The notes below the pieces were generated by a model. That model was not told the DNA's origin. It ran no database searches and worked only from the letters and a program-made list of their open reading frames with translations. A stretch of 40,083 nt of DNA, from the IMG/VR virus record IMGVR_UViG_3300044491_001150, positions 1 to 40,083 of that record; one strand, given 5' to 3'. Shown here piece after piece: positions 3,320-40,083 of this stretch (positions within the stretch are counted from its first letter, which is position 1; every line of letters starts with the position of its first letter). The DNA comes from a virus. Both the position numbers and the translations under genes were made by a program.

Positions 3320-4824
3320 TCTTTTTCTATTTCCTGCATATGTGATATATCTTGTTCTACCCAAGGCTGGCTGTACTTAGGTACATTATTATTCCAAGGA
3401 CTAGACCATCCAATTTTTGAGTTTCTATTTCTTACATGAGCGGGCAATCTATGTCCACAAACTTCTCTTAGAAGATATTTTTGAATCATCCAATCTTTTC
3501 CAAACTTTTCATTGTGTGCTAGTTTCCATTTACCAGCGATAGCAAATACATATTTTACAAAGTTTTGTCCAAGAAATACAGGTCTTGACTCTAAGCCAAA
3601 CATTCCACAAGTTTGGTCTGTTGCTAATATATTTTGTTCAGAAGTACAAAACATATCTATAAATAAAGAATTGTTTATAAAGTCATCTCCATAACATTTT
3701 GGTATGTCTGGATTAATTTTTATAGACCAATCTGTATACTTCTTGTCTAATCTTTTATTATGATGTGTATAACCACCAAACATCTCATCTGCACTATCTC
3801 CTGTAAGTATAACTTTACATCCTTTAGCTTTAGCAGCCTGACATAAGGCATATCGAGGAGCTCTTCTGTTATGGTCTGACCATGCAAAATGAGTATTATT
3901 CATCCACATTCTACCGTAGTGTTCTACATAATTATAAGGCAGAGTTACTACATTAATAGGTATATTCCATTCTTTGCAAGTTTGTATTGCCATTTTAGAT
4001 TCGTCTCTCATACCTTGAAAGTCAAACTCAGTTTTTTCTTGACCATATGCACAAGTAAATACTTCTAAGTCTATATCCATATCTTTAACTACAGATAAAA
4101 CCATTGTACTATCTAATCCACCACTTAAAAATAATCCTGTTTTTTGTTTACTTTGTGCAAGTTTTCTAATATTATTTACTAACCTTTCTTCAAAATCTTT
4201 AGGAACTTGCGGATAAAATGTTTGCATTAAATGAATATCCCATAAGTTTTTTGACTTCATTAGTTTTTTTGTAGCAAAATTATACTTAAATATTTCTCCA
4301 GGCATTACCTTTATAATATCTTTATATGGTGACTCTCTTTTAAACCATTGTCTTTGCCTCTTGTACTGTTGAGTATGAGAGTGATTATATTTCTTTTTAG
4401 TAAAACTTTTCAAACTTGTAGAAATAGTAATATCTTCGCCCTTTTTATATATCCATAAAGGTTTAGCACCAAAATGGTCTCTTACTGCGGTAAGCTCTCT
4501 TGTTTCCGTATTATAATGTACGAATGAGCCATGCCAATCAGTAGAAGATAAAAATCTCAGTCCATATGTTTCAAATCCATTTGCTAAAAATAGCGTATCA
4601 TTATCAACATTAGAATCATATGCTTCACCATTAAATACAAACATATTATTATTTTTTGTTTGTATTGGTTGCCAGCCTTGTACTCCTCTTATATCAAGCA
4701 AAGCGTGACCCATAGCAATATCCTTATTTCTAGCATATCTACACCCGTCAGGGCCTCGGAAAGCCTGTCTTTCTGTCATATTCTGTATATTATCTATATC
4801 AGTTGTTACTACAAATCCACACAT
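3316..4824 (-). CDS. asnB: Glutamine-hydrolysing asparagine synthetase
   Basis: 502 residues, close to full AsnB length. The N-terminus MCGFVV carries the catalytic Cys2 of class II glutamine amidotransferases, followed by RGPDG and the FNGEAYD segment. The synthetase half has the PP-loop LFLSGGLDSTMVLSV, then GDSADEMFGGY and the C-terminal KYLLREVCGHRLPAHVRNR. Both active sites look intact, so it should convert Asp and glutamine to Asn, or amidate another carboxylate. Asparagine synthetase-like genes occur in several marine phages. It sits between a radical SAM gene and a cytidylyltransferase, so a role in modifying a glycan or peptide is as possible as free asparagine supply. Confidence 0.93.
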   Translation of the reverse strand: MCGFVVTTDIDNIQNMTERQAFRGPDGCRYARNKDIAMGHALLDIRGVQGWQPIQTKNNNMFVFNGEAYDSNVDNDTLFLANGFETYGLRFLSSTDWHGSFVHYNTETRELTAVRDHFGAKPLWIYKKGEDITISTSLKSFTKKKYNHSHTQQYKRQRQWFKRESPYKDIIKVMPGEIFKYNFATKKLMKSKNLWDIHLMQTFYPQVPKDFEERLVNNIRKLAQSKQKTGLFLSGGLDSTMVLSVVKDMDIDLEVFTCAYGQEKTEFDFQGMRDESKMAIQTCKEWNIPINVVTLPYNYVEHYGRMWMNNTHFAWSDHNRRAPRYALCQAAKAKGCKVILTGDSADEMFGGYTHHNKRLDKKYTDWSIKINPDIPKCYGDDFINNSLFIDMFCTSEQNILATDQTCGMFGLESRPVFLGQNFVKYVFAIAGKWKLAHNEKFGKDWMIQKYLLREVCGHRLPAHVRNRNSKIGWSSPWNNNVPKYSQPWVEQDISHMQEIEKE

Positions 4825-32698: not shown

Positions 32699-32727
32699 TT
32701 GACAAACCCTCTCAAAGTCGGTATAAT
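32699..32727 (+). promoter_or_regulatory. Promoter of the nuclease-bS21 operon
   Basis: Plus strand TTGACA (32699-32704), 17-bp spacer containing CTCTCAAAG, TATAAT (32722-32727), preceded by AATAGTTC. The 32 bases from 32699 to 32730 recur exactly on the minus strand at 39028-38997. Predicted start near 32734. Confidence 0.9.
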
Positions 32728-32779
32728 ATATTTATAAAAAAATAAATACAATGGTGTGTTTATTAAGCAAGGAGAAAGA

Positions 32780-33442
32780 ATGAGTAATACTACTACATTG
32801 CGTCAAACACATTCTGATTTCGGTGGAGGTCAAACCATCTTTAGTAAAGGTGCAAGAGACATAGAAGCGAATCTGAATAGTGTAGTTCCACTCGTAATGG
32901 AACAATTAAAAGAGGACTACCCTCATTACACTATAGAACATCATAAAAATATTCGTAAGGATAGCAGTTTCTATGATTTAATGGGATATGAACTTCACAA
33001 CCCCAATGCTAACATCAAACCTGATGGTGGCATGATTACAGTAAATGGTTATCCTGTGTTCTTTGGCGAAGTCAAAAATCAGGGTACGAATCACCTAAGA
33101 AAACGAGAAGGATTACCTCGTCAAAGTATGGGTAATGGCATTGAGCGTATCTACAAAAACATTGTAGAGATTTCACACATTATGAAAAACTACGACTGTG
33201 TGCCTTATGTTATCTTTGTGCAAGGTTCTGACTTTCATCAAGGCAGTTCAATCATTGATAGACTTTCAATGCTCTCGCCCTTCAATCAACTGAAAACAAC
33301 AGAAACAAGTGTGTTCATTAAAATCAACGATAACTGGGATGATGAACCAAAGACATTCTCTGCTGCAGAAATGTATGATATTACGCTAGAGAGATGCAAG
33401 GAGTCTCTAGTTTACTACAAAGCGAGGTCACTCAATGTCTAA
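32780..33442 (+). CDS. EcoRI-like type II restriction endonuclease, no methyltransferase seen
   Basis: 220 residues from the ATG at 32780 behind AAGGAG. IKPDGGMITVNGYPVFFGEV carries Asp82 and Glu97, and KNQG Lys99: the EcoRI PD...ExK set (D91, E111, K113). QSMGNGIERIYKN contains Asn119, Glu122 and Arg123, matching EcoRI N141, E144 and R145, but EcoRI A142 is Gly, A138 aligns with Ser and M137 with Gln. PYVIFVQGSDF matches EcoRI PYVLFLEGSNF. The protein should bind as a dimer and cut an AATT-centred site. There is no methyltransferase beside it, and RAATTY is absent from the whole window. A ten-codon frame at 32751-32783 overlaps the start as ATGA. Family assignment is firm; RAATTY specificity is inferred. 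Confidence 0.95.
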   Translation: MSNTTTLRQTHSDFGGGQTIFSKGARDIEANLNSVVPLVMEQLKEDYPHYTIEHHKNIRKDSSFYDLMGYELHNPNANIKPDGGMITVNGYPVFFGEVKNQGTNHLRKREGLPRQSMGNGIERIYKNIVEISHIMKNYDCVPYVIFVQGSDFHQGSSIIDRLSMLSPFNQLKTTETSVFIKINDNWDDEPKTFSAAEMYDITLERCKESLVYYKARSLNV

Positions 33443-36824: not shown

Positions 36825-37029
36825 TATCTTCTCCTAAATTGATGTTCACACCGTAGAGTATACCTAATCTATGTAGCATTTGCTCATACTCAAAGGTCAA
36901 CTCTACTATGTGACTGTTTATTGCTTCCAAGTCGTCTAAACACAACTTGATTTCTTCCTCGTGCCTCTGCAGTTCCTCTTTGAGGTTGTCTGCTTCGGTC
37001 TTTGTTGGGAAAGGAATTACTTTACCCAC
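36811..37029 (-). CDS. Coiled-coil hypothetical protein
   Basis: 72 residues from a GTG at 37029. GKVIPFPTKTEADNLKEEL starts a long helix (RHEEEIKLCLDDLEAINSHI). Unknown function. Its start overlaps the stop of the tiny membrane protein gene. Confidence 0.6.
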   Translation of the reverse strand: MGKVIPFPTKTEADNLKEELQRHEEEIKLCLDDLEAINSHIVELTFEYEQMLHRLGILYGVNINLGEDSEKR

Positions 37030-37102
37030 GCCAGTCGTCCTTGTTATTAAAGTACATATATACTAAGAACATTGCGACTAGAATTAATACTGTTAAGTCC
37101 AT
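37022..37102 (-). CDS. Tiny membrane peptide (26 aa)
   Basis: MDLTVLILVAMFLVYMYFN then NKDDWRG. A single span with a charged tail. It overlaps the 40-aa protein by 10 bp and the GTG start by 8 bp. Small size limits certainty. Confidence 0.4.
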   Translation of the reverse strand: MDLTVLILVAMFLVYMYFNNKDDWRG

Positions 37103-37215
37103 ATCGCCCCCACTAGCATTATAATTAATGCTGTATAACCGAACAGTAGTAGGAACCAATCTACAGAGTCAGAACTATCGAATGGTTCCCAAATTGCATC
37201 AAGTACTTTCCTCAT
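37093..37215 (-). CDS. Small membrane protein (40 aa)
   Basis: MRKVLDAIWEPFDSSDSVD then WFLLLFGYTALIIMLVGAI. One span near the C-terminus. Its ATG overlaps the stop of the basic 45-aa gene (ATGA), supporting coupled translation. Confidence 0.55.
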   Translation of the reverse strand: MRKVLDAIWEPFDSSDSVDWFLLLFGYTALIIMLVGAIWT

Positions 37216-37349
37216 CTCCCCTGTCCTCTGTACTTCTTGAACGAACGCTTCTTGTTCTTGTTCATATTAAGACTGATGTGTCTGTGTGAGTCGCCTTGTG
37301 CTGTTTTCTTTACATGACTCTGATGTACTGCTTTACCACCCCACCTCAT
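37212..37349 (-). CDS. Small basic protein (45 aa)
   Basis: MRWGGKAVHQSHVKKTAQG opens it and NMNKNKKRSFKKYRGQGR ends it, strongly basic. Its ATG overlaps the upstream stop as ATGA and its stop overlaps the next start the same way. Likely nucleic-acid-binding. Confidence 0.6.
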   Translation of the reverse strand: MRWGGKAVHQSHVKKTAQGDSHRHISLNMNKNKKRSFKKYRGQGR

Positions 37350-37573
37350 GACTGCACCTCAGGACTTACCCACTCTATTTTGATACCTCTACGGACTAGT
37401 TCGTTTAGACACTTCTGTCTTACTTTAGGTTTCATATTTGAACCTCTGTCGTTGATGTACTCAAACAACTCTTGTTTTGGTGTGTTTTTGAGGTAGAAAT
37501 GCTCCGTAGGTAATTTACTTGCTGGAACTCCTCTGATATATTTTTTTGCACTTGCTTTAAACTTTGCTGGCAT
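37346..37573 (-). CDS. Hypothetical protein, first gene of operon
   Basis: 75 residues from the ATG at 37573 behind AGGAGTACATT. PAKFKASAKKYIRGVPASKL, then TPKQELFEYINDRGSNMKP and LNELVRRGIKIEW. Basic and helical. It resembles small conserved marine phage proteins that I cannot name. Driven by the promoter at 37697-37725. Confidence 0.65.
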   Translation of the reverse strand: MPAKFKASAKKYIRGVPASKLPTEHFYLKNTPKQELFEYINDRGSNMKPKVRQKCLNELVRRGIKIEWVSPEVQS

Positions 37574-37696
37574 AATGTACTCCTGTATTAAATTGTTAAA
37601 CTTGGGGCAGTCCACAACTCTGCCGTGTATGTTCAGACATAACCTCCACACTCATTCAGTTAGGAAAATGTGGTTTCCTTTTCTTTTCATACATAT

Positions 37697-37725
37697 ATTA
37701 TACTCACTTTTTTACCATCTGTCAA
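37697..37725 (-). promoter_or_regulatory. Promoter of the 34.3-37.6 kb operon
   Basis: Minus strand TTGACA (37725-37720), 17-bp spacer, TATAAT (37702-37697), preceded by AATAGTTC. Shares AAAAGTGAGTATAATATAT with the promoter at 38759. Confidence 0.85.
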
Positions 37726-37773
37726 GAACTATTTTTAAATAGGTAGAAAAGTTTGATGTTAACTTTTGTAAGA

Positions 37774-37802
37774 CAAAAAAATGGGACGCCGAAGCATCCC
37801 AT
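37774..37802 (-). terminator. Rho-independent terminator of the large ncRNA
   Basis: Minus strand ATGGGATGC, TTCG tetraloop, GCGTCCCAT (37802-37781, nine pairs with one G-T), then six T. A textbook terminator. Confidence 0.92.
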
Positions 37803-38752
37803 CCAAACTGTTTGTTTTTTAAAGTGGTCGTGTCGGAATTAATCACAAACCTATCCACTGCGTAGCTAGAGGTGATGGATATTACAAACTTCAATCGAAG
37901 GTGCACTGCTTATTTCGCATCACTTATCTACTAAGTTGCTCTATTTTAAAGTCTTTGAGATTGACTATTGTGTCGACTAATCGAGTGCGAACTTCTTCAG
38001 TATATCTACTGAGTGACAGAGCGACTTCCGTTCTCGTTCCATTCTCTTTCCTATCTAAAGGTTGCGACAAATCTGGGTAAACTGCCCCTCGTCCCGCAGT
38101 ATACATTGGAATCACACTCTTGATTCCTTACTCTCACTCGGCACACTATGTGCACCAGCATATGTATCTGCTTACTTCCGTGACATCTTGCGATGGCAGA
38201 TAACGTGGTTTACTTCTTGGTTTTATCCAACTTTCCCGAAGGCGTGGAATAAACTCAGCGTGGTTTCCTCACTCTACAATGATTGTTTGGTCGTAATCGT
38301 TGCGTCCTATTACCTCTGCTTTAGTAAACCCGAAGGTGGTAACGCCCATTAAAGCAGTAAAACAAATCGATTTTATACTCTCGATAGAGTGCCGAGTTAT
38401 TTTGGTTCGTTATGCTCCGCTTACACCCTTAATCTACTCCAAGCAAAATGTTGGAGAGTATGGAATTACTGGAAGTATCCCCTCAAACCATTGTCGCATC
38501 AGTTCATGCGGTTATGACTCTATCTCCTTGCTGCGGAAGGTATGTCTCATAACGACTATCAAAAGCGGAGATTATTCACAATTAACGCACTCTCAAAATC
38601 CCAAAAGAGCATACGGCAGTGTTTAACGACTCGCCAGTCAAGTAGAAAACAACTCTCGATTATTTATTCGCTACCATTTTCTCTAAGAGTCTCTATGGGT
38701 CACTGCTAAATCATTTATTTTTTCGATTTATTGTTGTTTTCTTTGTTTCTGA
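37774..38752 (-). ncRNA. Large structured noncoding RNA (GOLLD-like candidate)
   Basis: About 980 nt with no credible gene on either strand, its own promoter (38759-38787) and a strong terminator. It is richer in G+C than its surroundings and full of hairpins on the minus strand. One is a helix ATCTGC/GCAGAT (38166-38201) enclosing CATC-GCAA-GATG with a GNRA tetraloop. Others are GGAATCA/TGATTCC (38108-38127), CTGCTTTA/TAAAGCAG (38316-38357), CGCAT/ATGCG (near 38503-38518) and TCCAA/TTGGA (near 38440-38457). Size, phage context and a nearby tRNA-like gene recall GOLLD RNAs, but I cannot match a consensus by eye. ROOL or a new class is possible. Confidence 0.75.
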
Positions 38753-38758
38753 ATATAT

Positions 38759-38787
38759 ATTATACTCACTTTTTAACCTCTTGTCAA
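38759..38787 (-). promoter_or_regulatory. Promoter of the large ncRNA
   Basis: Minus strand TTGACA (38787-38782), 17-bp spacer, TATAAT (38764-38759). Predicted start near 38752. Confidence 0.88.
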
Positions 38788-38799
38788 GAAAAATATTGA

Positions 38800-38993
38800 T
38801 TTTTTTCTCGAAAGGTGGTCTGGGCAAGCAGTTTAATTTTAAGTGTTGCTACCAAGTAATTGGTCTGTTATCACTTTCTGATGCCCAGTCCCAGCGTGTT
38901 CGGAGGTTCTGCGTTGCTTTCCCACTCAGTATGTCGGTGGTTCTGTTAGTTGCTTTCCACTCTCGGTTTCGCTTTCTCTTTCTCTCAAAAGAT
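38800..38993 (-). ncRNA. Short transcribed unit with a tandem repeat, possible small RNA
   Basis: Between the promoter at 39000-39028 and the next promoter lies about 200 bp with no ATG-initiated gene near the transcription start. It contains two imperfect direct copies of about 31 bp (plus-strand coordinates 38897-38927 and 38931-38962) sharing GGTTCTG and GTTGCTTTCC. A frame spans part of it but lacks a ribosome site. Confidence 0.4.
38897..38962. repeat. Two-copy imperfect tandem repeat of about 31 bp
   Basis: Copies at 38897-38927 and 38931-38962 share CGG(A/T)GGTTCTG, GTTGCTTTCC and ACTC in the same order. Confidence 0.7.
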
Positions 38994-38999
38994 ACATAT

Positions 39000-39028
39000 A
39001 TTATACCGACTTTGAGAGGGTTTGTCAA
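39000..39028 (-). promoter_or_regulatory. Promoter, exact copy of the nuclease-operon promoter
   Basis: Minus strand TTGACA (39028-39023), 17-bp spacer, TATAAT (39005-39000). The 32-base core matches the plus-strand promoter at 32699 base for base. Confidence 0.88.
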
Positions 39029-39057
39029 TAGAAACATTACTGTTTTTACTGAAACTT

Positions 39058-39198
39058 TACTTTGAACAGGGGGGTGTATTTGACCCACCAAAAGCGAGGG
39101 GTGAGGGAGTCGAACCCCCGACTGTCACTAAAGTATCTTATTAGTGCCGTGCTTCCGTAGACACCTACCCCTCTAAACTTCTTACCCTGTTCAAAGTA
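39058..39198. repeat. 14-bp inverted repeat flanking the tRNA-like gene
   Basis: TACTTTGAACAGGG (39058-39071) and CCCTGTTCAAAGTA (39185-39198) are perfect inverted copies that enclose the tRNA-like sequence and could pair in the precursor RNA. Confidence 0.8.
39096..39173 (-). tRNA. tRNA-like gene with enlarged anticodon arm
   Basis: 78 nt on the minus strand. Acceptor stem GAGGGGT/ACCCCTC (7 pairs), D-arm GTGT...GCAC with GG in the loop, and a T-arm GGGGG-TTCGACT-CCCTC. Between them CACTAA/TTAGTG forms a six-pair stem with a nine-base loop (TAAGATACT), larger than a normal anticodon arm, so I cannot assign an anticodon or amino acid. No CCA is encoded. It could be a degenerate tRNA, a frameshift-type tRNA or a tRNA mimic. 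Confidence 0.65.
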
Positions 39199-39227
39199 GA
39201 TTACTTAGGGTAATCAATCCTTGACAC

Positions 39228-39539
39228 TTATTGTGAGATTGCGTCAACTAATCTTTGTAGGTCTTGCTTGCCTGCTTTGACTAAAGTCGGAACTTCAATT
39301 CCAAAGTGGTCAGCAATTTGAGCAACTAATTCTGCTTTTGCCACTACTGGTTCACCAGATTTGGTTGTTCTAGGTTGTGCTACATACACTCCCTCTCTGC
39401 TTAGTTTAGCAATGACACTTCTTGTAGTCTTGCCGAACTGTTCTGCTAGTGCATCTACAGTATCTCTACTTGGATTTTCTGTGTATGCTTCAGTCATTTG
39501 ATTGACCATTTCTTCTGTGTAATTTTTTGCGTTTGCCAT
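39228..39539 (-). CDS. HTH-like DNA-binding protein (single unit)
   Basis: 103 residues from the ATG at 39539 behind GGGAGAAAT. NYTEEMVNQMTEAYTENPS, then ALAEQFGKTTRSVIAKL and SREGVYVAQPRTTKSGE are the HTH-like unit, closely matching 34488-34796. C-terminal helices VAQIADHFGIEVPTLVKAG. A 32-residue in-frame extension begins at 39635 with its own GAGGGAAAG ribosome site downstream of a second promoter (39663-39691), so two forms may be made. Likely a regulator. Confidence 0.78.
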   Translation of the reverse strand: MANAKNYTEEMVNQMTEAYTENPSRDTVDALAEQFGKTTRSVIAKLSREGVYVAQPRTTKSGEPVVAKAELVAQIADHFGIEVPTLVKAGKQDLQRLVDAISQ

Positions 39540-39569
39540 ATCGTATTTCTCCCAATTATTTATAAGTCT

Positions 39570-39598
39570 ATTATAGTAAATATTTTCACACTTGTCAA
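39570..39598 (-). promoter_or_regulatory. Inner promoter of the HTH gene at 39228
   Basis: Minus strand TTGACA (39598-39593), 17-bp spacer, TATAAT (39575-39570). It lies inside the longer frame and would express the short form. Confidence 0.8.
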
Positions 39599-39662
39599 GG
39601 ATTTTCTGAAAAAAGTTTGATTTTTTGTTTTTCATTTTCTTTCCCTCTCAAAATATACATAT

Positions 39663-39691
39663 ATTATACGCGCTTTGTATTCCCTTGTCAA
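39663..39691 (-). promoter_or_regulatory. Outer promoter of the HTH gene at 39228
   Basis: Minus strand TTGACA (39691-39686), 17-bp spacer, TATAAT (39668-39663). Predicted start near 39656, upstream of the ATG at 39635. Confidence 0.85.
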
Positions 39692-39808
39692 TAGAAAATG
39701 CACATTTATTTATAAAATATCGCAGTCTAACTTCGGGGGGCGGGACGCGAAACCACCTCGCTTCGCTCGAATCAACGCCAAAAAAGGGCAAAATTGTGAT
39801 AATTCCCC

Positions 39809-39837
39809 TTGACACCCGCGCAAATCTGTGCTAAAAT
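39809..39837 (+). promoter_or_regulatory. Plus-strand promoter
   Basis: TTGACA (39809-39814), 17-bp spacer, TAAAAT (39832-39837). Divergent from the promoter at 39663. Confidence 0.75.
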
Positions 39838-39843
39838 AAGAAA

Positions 39844-40020
39844 GACTTCCTATATCCCCGCGCAGCGCTGCATCGCTTTTACACTTCACTTTAGCACTTA
39901 TCGGTTTCGCACTCTGGCGCAGGCGACGCTTTGCCGAAAGCCTTTGTTTATGCGGGGTTATGCCCGACCGCTGTGAGAGACTGCTCAAATTAAAATAATT
40001 AGATAAAAATTAAAGAAATC
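39844..40020 (+). ncRNA. GC-rich leader or small RNA, no gene
   Basis: About 175 bp richer in G+C than its surroundings and without a convincing gene. CCCCGC (39856-39861) can pair with GCGGGG (39952-39957), enclosing GC-rich inner segments. It could be an RNA or a structured leader for genes beyond the window. Confidence 0.35.
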
Positions 40021-40021
40021 C

Positions 40022-40050
40022 TTGACAAACCCGTCAAAGTGTGATAAAAT
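40022..40050 (+). promoter_or_regulatory. Plus-strand promoter at the right edge
   Basis: TTGACA (40022-40027), 17-bp spacer, TAAAAT (40045-40050). The -35 and spacer start (TTGACAAACCC) match the promoter at 32699. Points out of the window. Confidence 0.75.
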
Positions 40051-40083
40051 CGGCGCGGAGCGCTTTGGCTAAAAATAATTCAT

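Follow-up and report, generated by a model that had tools for sequence, protein, structure and literature searches.

The window, i.e. the whole stretch of DNA analysed here, is a virus record of 40,083 bases. T5-like replication genes are present, and the DNA polymerase is nearest to those of T5-type phages (approximately 45% identity). For positions 20001-40083 no near match was found in the phage collection. Near the right end, on the minus strand, a large RNA of approximately 975 nt is predicted to be transcribed from 38752 to 37774. A preliminary description of this DNA had placed here a structured noncoding RNA of about 980 nt with its own promoter and terminator, a proposal that is supported, at the level of sequence, by covariation among homologues and by the lack of a conserved reading frame. 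Promoter, terminator, conserved interval and covariation together point to this span; its predicted start lies approximately 7 nt past the -10 box and its predicted end is the T run of the terminator. The boundaries first proposed were correct to within a few bases.

Control signals and neighbouring genes

The RNA is predicted to be driven by a perfect sigma-70 promoter on the minus strand (38787-38759; TTGACA-17-TATAAT), which matches the consensus at 12 of 12 positions as had been described, and homologues carry a promoter of the same kind ahead of the interval. On the same strand, the expected intrinsic terminator is found at 37804-37779 as a hairpin with a UUCG tetraloop (GGATGGGATGC-TTCG-GCGTCCCATTTTTTT) followed by a T run. 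Its stem varies in sequence among homologues while pairing is kept; a strictly perfect stem is present in 21 of 38 loci tested, and the misses include imperfect stems, e.g. that of L007. A second perfect promoter (39000-39028, minus strand), found in many homologues as well, reads through a short stretch towards the promoter of the RNA. The G+C content of the RNA region, 0.413, does exceed that of its neighbours, but modestly: the 1-kb flanks have 0.381 and 0.385, and the remaining window to the left has 0.353.

Its position immediately before a gene block on the same strand, and the intrinsic terminator at its end, would also suit a very long cis-acting, riboswitch-like leader or attenuator, in which the terminator acts as a switch for the small genes downstream. 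We consider this unlikely because the next genes own a promoter. It is perfect, lies just past the terminator (37725-37697, minus strand) and sets the RNA apart from the downstream genes, whereas in a riboswitch or leader no promoter separates the element from the gene it controls. In the homologues, too, a promoter comes after the interval. Moreover, the form of the RNA is kept in one contig (L106) beside other genes, and the leaders known to us are far shorter than 975 nt.

The constant neighbour of the RNA is the gene of a D5-like DNA-binding protein upstream (39635-39228, minus strand; PHROG 323 and 1725), for which the phage collection gave no cultured-phage match at E<=1e-5. A second, more distant D5-like paralogue (approximately 42-49% identity) is encoded a few kb downstream of the RNA in L087, L093, L095, L096, L100, L101 and L103. 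Phage T5 resembles the window in its D5 region, with a D5-like gene, a related DNA polymerase and annotated promoters and terminators, but neither T5 nor phage GreteKellenberger has such an interval beside D5, and the R2 model found no match at E<=10 in the stretches of these two phages.

Between the D5-like gene and the large RNA, and outside the latter, lies a degenerate tRNA-like element (39173-39095, minus strand), which occurs in this place also in L007, L014, L016, L017, L025, L029, L033 and others. The proximity to tRNAs first pointed out applies only loosely: this element scores 26.5 bits with the Rfam tRNA model, for which the gathering score is 29, and no tRNA is detected in the window by ARAGORN. 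True tRNA-Glu (ttc) genes were seen, among 37 loci scanned, in L006 (471-545) and L017 (577-651), between the tRNA-like element and the promoters of the large RNA. The element contains a D-arm-like part, GTGTCTACGGAAGCAC, and a T-arm with a TTCGA or TTCAA loop, all inside a longer stem. In most homologues the anticodon arm is shrunken, e.g. CCAAATGG. The D-arm motif is found, with at most three mismatches, in 29 of 59 loci, 16 of which were aligned. Possibly the element is a separate small tRNA-mimic RNA. With a reading as Y RNA in view, a gene for the partner protein Ro60 (TROVE) was looked for and found in none of 11 records.

Relatives of the interval and its coding potential

With the D5-like protein as query, 114 relatives were detected in IMG/VR; the best 80 of these, loci that adjoin the same D5-like gene, were retained. 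The set comprised 85 sequences (84 loci and the window), including repeated fetches of the same contig. Downstream of the D5-like gene, a promoter-to-promoter interval of the expected kind is present in 81 of the 85 sequences, counting L064, whose contig ends within the interval; 59 are unique at <96% identity. Their length is mostly approximately 0.8 to 1.3 kb, with shorter forms of 612 to 678 nt in L044, L059 and L066. Large parts beyond the two modules described below, the core and PK-A, are unalignable across clades. In L033 and its kin the 5' 172 nt match the window at 83% and little else does at that threshold; such patchy local similarity suggests that modules have been exchanged.

The view that the region holds no convincing gene is borne out by shuffling and by the relatives. 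The longest open frame in the interval of the window has 109 codons as compared to a mean of 84 in shuffled sequences, 10% of 40 shuffles having one equally long, and the frames of the window are mostly broken across seven relatives. Nevertheless, in 10 of the 59 unique intervals the longest frame is equalled by at most 3% of 40 shuffles, which exceeds expectation at that level, and five of seven close relatives keep open a frame of 42 codons on the opposite strand. These are the observations that could speak for an unrecognised protein or small-peptide gene. This explanation is extremely improbable in our judgement: the relatives have different frames, of the six frames in the window that have 40 codons or more, the other five are interrupted in four or more of seven relatives, large indels are frequent among the intervals, and compensatory changes of base pairs predominate. 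No reading frame was found to recur among the 59 unique intervals, nor does a conserved one run through the region.

Covarying modules of the predicted RNA

Absence of covariation among homologues would have spoken against a structured RNA; covariation is in fact strong in two local modules and in a consensus fold of close relatives. The PK-A module (38495-38563, minus strand) has a 3-bp stem, GUC/GAC in the window, whose 7-nt loop (38553-38547) pairs with a downstream segment (38517-38511) to form a pseudoknot; two hairpins (38540-38537/38529-38526 and 38510-38506/38499-38495) are part of it. The 3-bp stem occurs as GUC/GAC, CUC/GAG and CUU/AAG. Full complementarity of the 7-bp pseudoknot helix is found in 25 of 26 sequences, which display 14 different heptamers, and L081 pairs at six of seven positions. 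In the MAFFT alignment, in which approximately four rows are out of register, 91.5% of the cells pair as compared to 69.3 +/- 1.3 in shuffles, and 108 cells show double changes as compared to 33.2 +/- 5.2; none of 500 shuffles reached either value. Sliding the partner by 1-3 columns lowers pairing to 35 to 47%. Rows were picked by a pattern that partly fixes the 3-bp stem, so that pairing of this stem is partly selected, whereas the 7-bp helix is free of such selection.

The most widespread part is the core module (38273-38318, minus strand), a GAU/AUC hairpin in which an upstream GGU pairs with the loop ACC as a pseudoknot. Among the relatives the triplets of this pseudoknot vary (GGU/ACC, AGU/ACU, CGC/GCG and others). 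Over 52 sequences, 51 of them distinct, 86.0% of the cells are paired as compared to 67.8 in shuffles, and there are 74 double-change cells as compared to 30.8, a result matched by none of 500 shuffles. The alignment omitted 7 of the 59 rows as misaligned or truncated (L044, L053, L060, L061, L064, L065 and L074); in L044, L053 and L074 the core was later detected by the core model. The shuffles used for these modules ignore the relatedness of the sequences, yet the slid controls, which preserve it, also fall far below the observed values.

The helix 38602-38597/38573-38568 (minus strand) has compensatory changes at four pairs, and the hairpin AGUGAGGAAACCACGCU (38257-38273, minus strand) is kept in the close relatives of the window. 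The consensus fold of eight close relatives reaches -290.8 kcal/mol with 76 compensatory pairs, as compared to -188 to -206 kcal/mol and 22 to 37 pairs in 12 column shuffles. A helix scan gave 15 helices with at least two doubly changed pairs against 10 in a non-pairing mock, and 8 against 2 with at least three; only the strongest helices were therefore used. A global alignment of the 59 intervals proved too uneven for testing covariation over all pairs, as controls run in parallel orientation scored no lower than antiparallel runs; the module alignments were used instead.

Sequence composition agrees with selection for RNA structure. Over the 59 intervals, CTTCGG occurs 61 times as compared to 6.0 in shuffles, i.e. 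cUUCGg tetraloops are enriched approximately tenfold, and AGTA shows a strong strand bias across the family (676 as compared to 184 TACT), both as expected if the RNA is selected for its structure. In the RNA of the window itself AGTA is not enriched (8 as compared to 5.9).

It is the relatives that supply the evidence for the predicted structure, that of the single sequence being weak. Its fold energy (z = -1.82) separates weakly from shuffles and was set aside as evidence, as was the count of perfect hairpins, which separates from them no more clearly. The many perfect hairpins remarked upon earlier are not unusual: there are 10 of at least 5 bp as compared to 6.2 +/- 2.7 in dinucleotide shuffles, and 26 of 200 shuffles had as many. 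Nor could the described GNRA-capped hairpin be recovered, as none of the perfect hairpins of at least 5 bp on the transcribed strand has a GNRA loop; by inspection, a GAAA loop would require a stem that is short or mismatched (GGAAAC near 38269-38264). From the comparison of relatives we conclude that the locus almost certainly encodes a real, conserved, structured noncoding RNA.

The core model matches once in each of 74 of the 81 sources (the window and L002-L081), most of which were used to build it. It misses L051, L060, L061, L064, L065, L077 and L079; among these, L051, L064 and L077 are truncated. Eleven long records (40 to 105 kb), which were selected for holding loci of the RNA family, likewise have a single match each. 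Scans with the core pattern and the PK-A pattern found 18 and 5 stretches, respectively. Ten of the loci found by pattern were checked: the D5-like gene lies approximately 0.3 to 0.8 kb upstream of the core in eight, one is cut off and L106 is without the gene. Core matches outside the rows of the model, in sequences unselected by the core pattern, comprise L044, L053, L074, L106 and L112 together with near-duplicates of model rows.

L106 is a contig of 2,954 nt (1-2954) on which the RNA cassette follows a frame that by eye resembles a phage lysozyme, and small genes, with no D5-like gene. Over the RNA it is 90% identical to L067, and the shared segment starts within the tRNA-like element. Because this contig carries the RNA beside other genes, the D5-like neighbour appears dispensable and the RNA is probably an autonomous cassette that moves by itself, provided that L106 is no artefact of a chimeric assembly, which is possible for this contig. 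In L112 the core is found at 3712-3753. This contig of 4.45 kb was assigned by binning to a Flavobacteriaceae MAG, which hints weakly at a host; as this is a binned contig of that size, we do not claim a host assignment.

With its pseudoknotted core and, in the contig L106, a second genomic location, the cassette might also be taken for a mobile catalytic RNA or its remnant, such as a group I or II intron or a retron-like RNA. Rfam includes models for group I and II introns, and no Rfam match, to these introns or otherwise, was obtained for the large RNA in the window or in the homologous loci searched. The interval contains no enzyme frame, and it has its own promoter and terminator and is placed between genes rather than inside one. 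A catalytic origin is therefore very unlikely.

Comparison with large phage RNAs and proposed role

To our knowledge, few families of large structured phage RNAs have been described, and GOLLD and ROOL have no established role. The GOLLD and ROOL models gave no match at E<=10 in window positions 37000-40083, none at the gathering score in 15 homologous loci and none at E<=2 in 6 homologous loci. Rightly, the preliminary description had allowed for a class other than GOLLD. Since Rfam gives no match to GOLLD, ROOL or another family, we read the RNA as representing a new family among the large "ornate" phage RNAs, one that matches no catalogued family. It falls into the group of large ornate phage RNAs, a term that is descriptive and denotes no family, being longer than 600 nt and noncoding, with a conserved elaborate fold and pseudoknots. 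By blast against cultured phages, the RNA had only a chance-level match of 28 nt, in Shigella phage SH6 (E = 0.3), and literature searches with incomplete journal coverage found no description of it.

Size class, phage home and ornate folding are shared with GOLLD and ROOL, but no detectable sequence is. As described in parts of PMC12286853, GOLLD is phage-borne, longer than 800 nt and rich in helices and pseudoknots, has conserved and variable parts and lies near tRNAs or tRNA-like elements. In GOLLD it is the 3' region that is universally conserved; in the present RNA, by contrast, a small core at the centre is the module that occurs most widely. The window, moreover, has no true tRNA. ROOL (Rumen-Originating, Ornate, Large) is, in those parts of the same source, a large RNA of phages and prophages that forms multiple pseudoknots, reaches high abundance in one strain and has no protein partner known (PMC12286853). 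It differs in neighbourhood and, with 659 nt for the solved RNA (PMC12286853), in length. Both GOLLD and ROOL form hollow RNA homo-oligomers, according to the same sections of PMC12286853.

Gene-free phage transcripts of approximately 0.6 to 1.2 kb are a further likeness, namely the lncRNA of ICP1 between gp139 and gp140 and lnc001 and lnc002 of phage K. As far as the relevant excerpts report, a phage lncRNA of similar size is the most abundant ICP1 transcript (PMC7567579), a phage K lncRNA has the highest read number among the noncoding transcripts of that phage, and lnc001 has its own early promoter (PMC9241854). Two covariance models found no match in the ICP1 lncRNA interval and recognised neither T5 nor phage GreteKellenberger, and their sole match in the phage K lncRNAs, inside lnc001, was not significant (E = 3.6).

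Comparison of the loci shows the predicted RNA to be noncoding, structured, conserved, single-copy and bounded by promoter and terminator. Early and high expression, action in trans, formation of a particle and a binding partner are what we infer beyond this. Given its consensus promoter, its terminator and a fold that is both elaborate and conserved, the RNA may well be made by the host polymerase and act in trans as a folded molecule. Host sigma-70 RNA polymerase would make the RNA early from its consensus promoter and stop at the RNA's own terminator. The fold would be built round the pseudoknot core, which is small and widespread, and the hairpin modules at its periphery would be exchangeable. 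By analogy with the homo-oligomers of GOLLD and ROOL and with the abundant phage lncRNAs of similar size, a folded RNA particle appears most likely; it would act in trans, alone or as a homo-oligomer, and may hold or titrate a macromolecule of host or phage as the cell is taken over.

A regulatory or sponge RNA acting in trans, whose many exposed loops bind a host RNA-binding protein or pair with mRNAs, would agree with the strong promoter and with short motifs that recur across the family (AGTAGTA, GTAGTAA and GGCAGTA). We regard this alternative as possible but doubtful, as conservation resides in paired and pseudoknotted elements, not in long unpaired antisense stretches. The reading as a whole, a new family of large, independently transcribed, pseudoknotted noncoding RNA in uncultured, putatively aquatic tailed phages with T5-like replication genes that acts in trans as a folded particle titrating or holding a macromolecule, is one we favour with moderate confidence. 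A relative of 105 kb encodes the terminase, portal, major head and major tail proteins of tailed phages. The phages may be marine or aquatic, to judge from relatives such as this one, which also encodes a protein of 594 aa. For this protein, the phage collection gave best matches in pelagiphage HTVC008M and Methylophilales phages, where the annotation reads adenylate/guanylate cyclase.

More speculatively, the family might represent a further, unrelated lineage of self-assembling RNA particles. It would then be an autonomous, transplantable RNA-cage cassette with a widespread pseudoknot core and a swappable periphery, expressed at the start of infection in widespread marine-type phages, with the tRNA-like RNA next to it or host ribosomes perhaps as cargo. 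As an unrelated family with deep sequence diversity, it would provide an independent case beside GOLLD and ROOL. It displays which parts are constant (promoter, terminator, central pseudoknot core and single copy) and which are free (peripheral hairpins). The alignment is ready for structure determination, and whether RNA cages are a recurrent phage strategy becomes a testable question. Noncoding intervals of approximately 1 kb in phage contigs should not be dismissed as empty.

GATC is strongly avoided, with 8 sites in the whole window as compared to 108 expected and a single site in the 59 RNA intervals as compared to 153, which suggests pressure from a GATC-cutting restriction system. A restriction endonuclease domain of the EcoRI type (PF02963, E = 3.2e-18) is found in a protein encoded at 32756-33442 of the window. 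Its gene is on the plus strand, unlike most genes, and a perfect promoter (32699-32727) lies just upstream.
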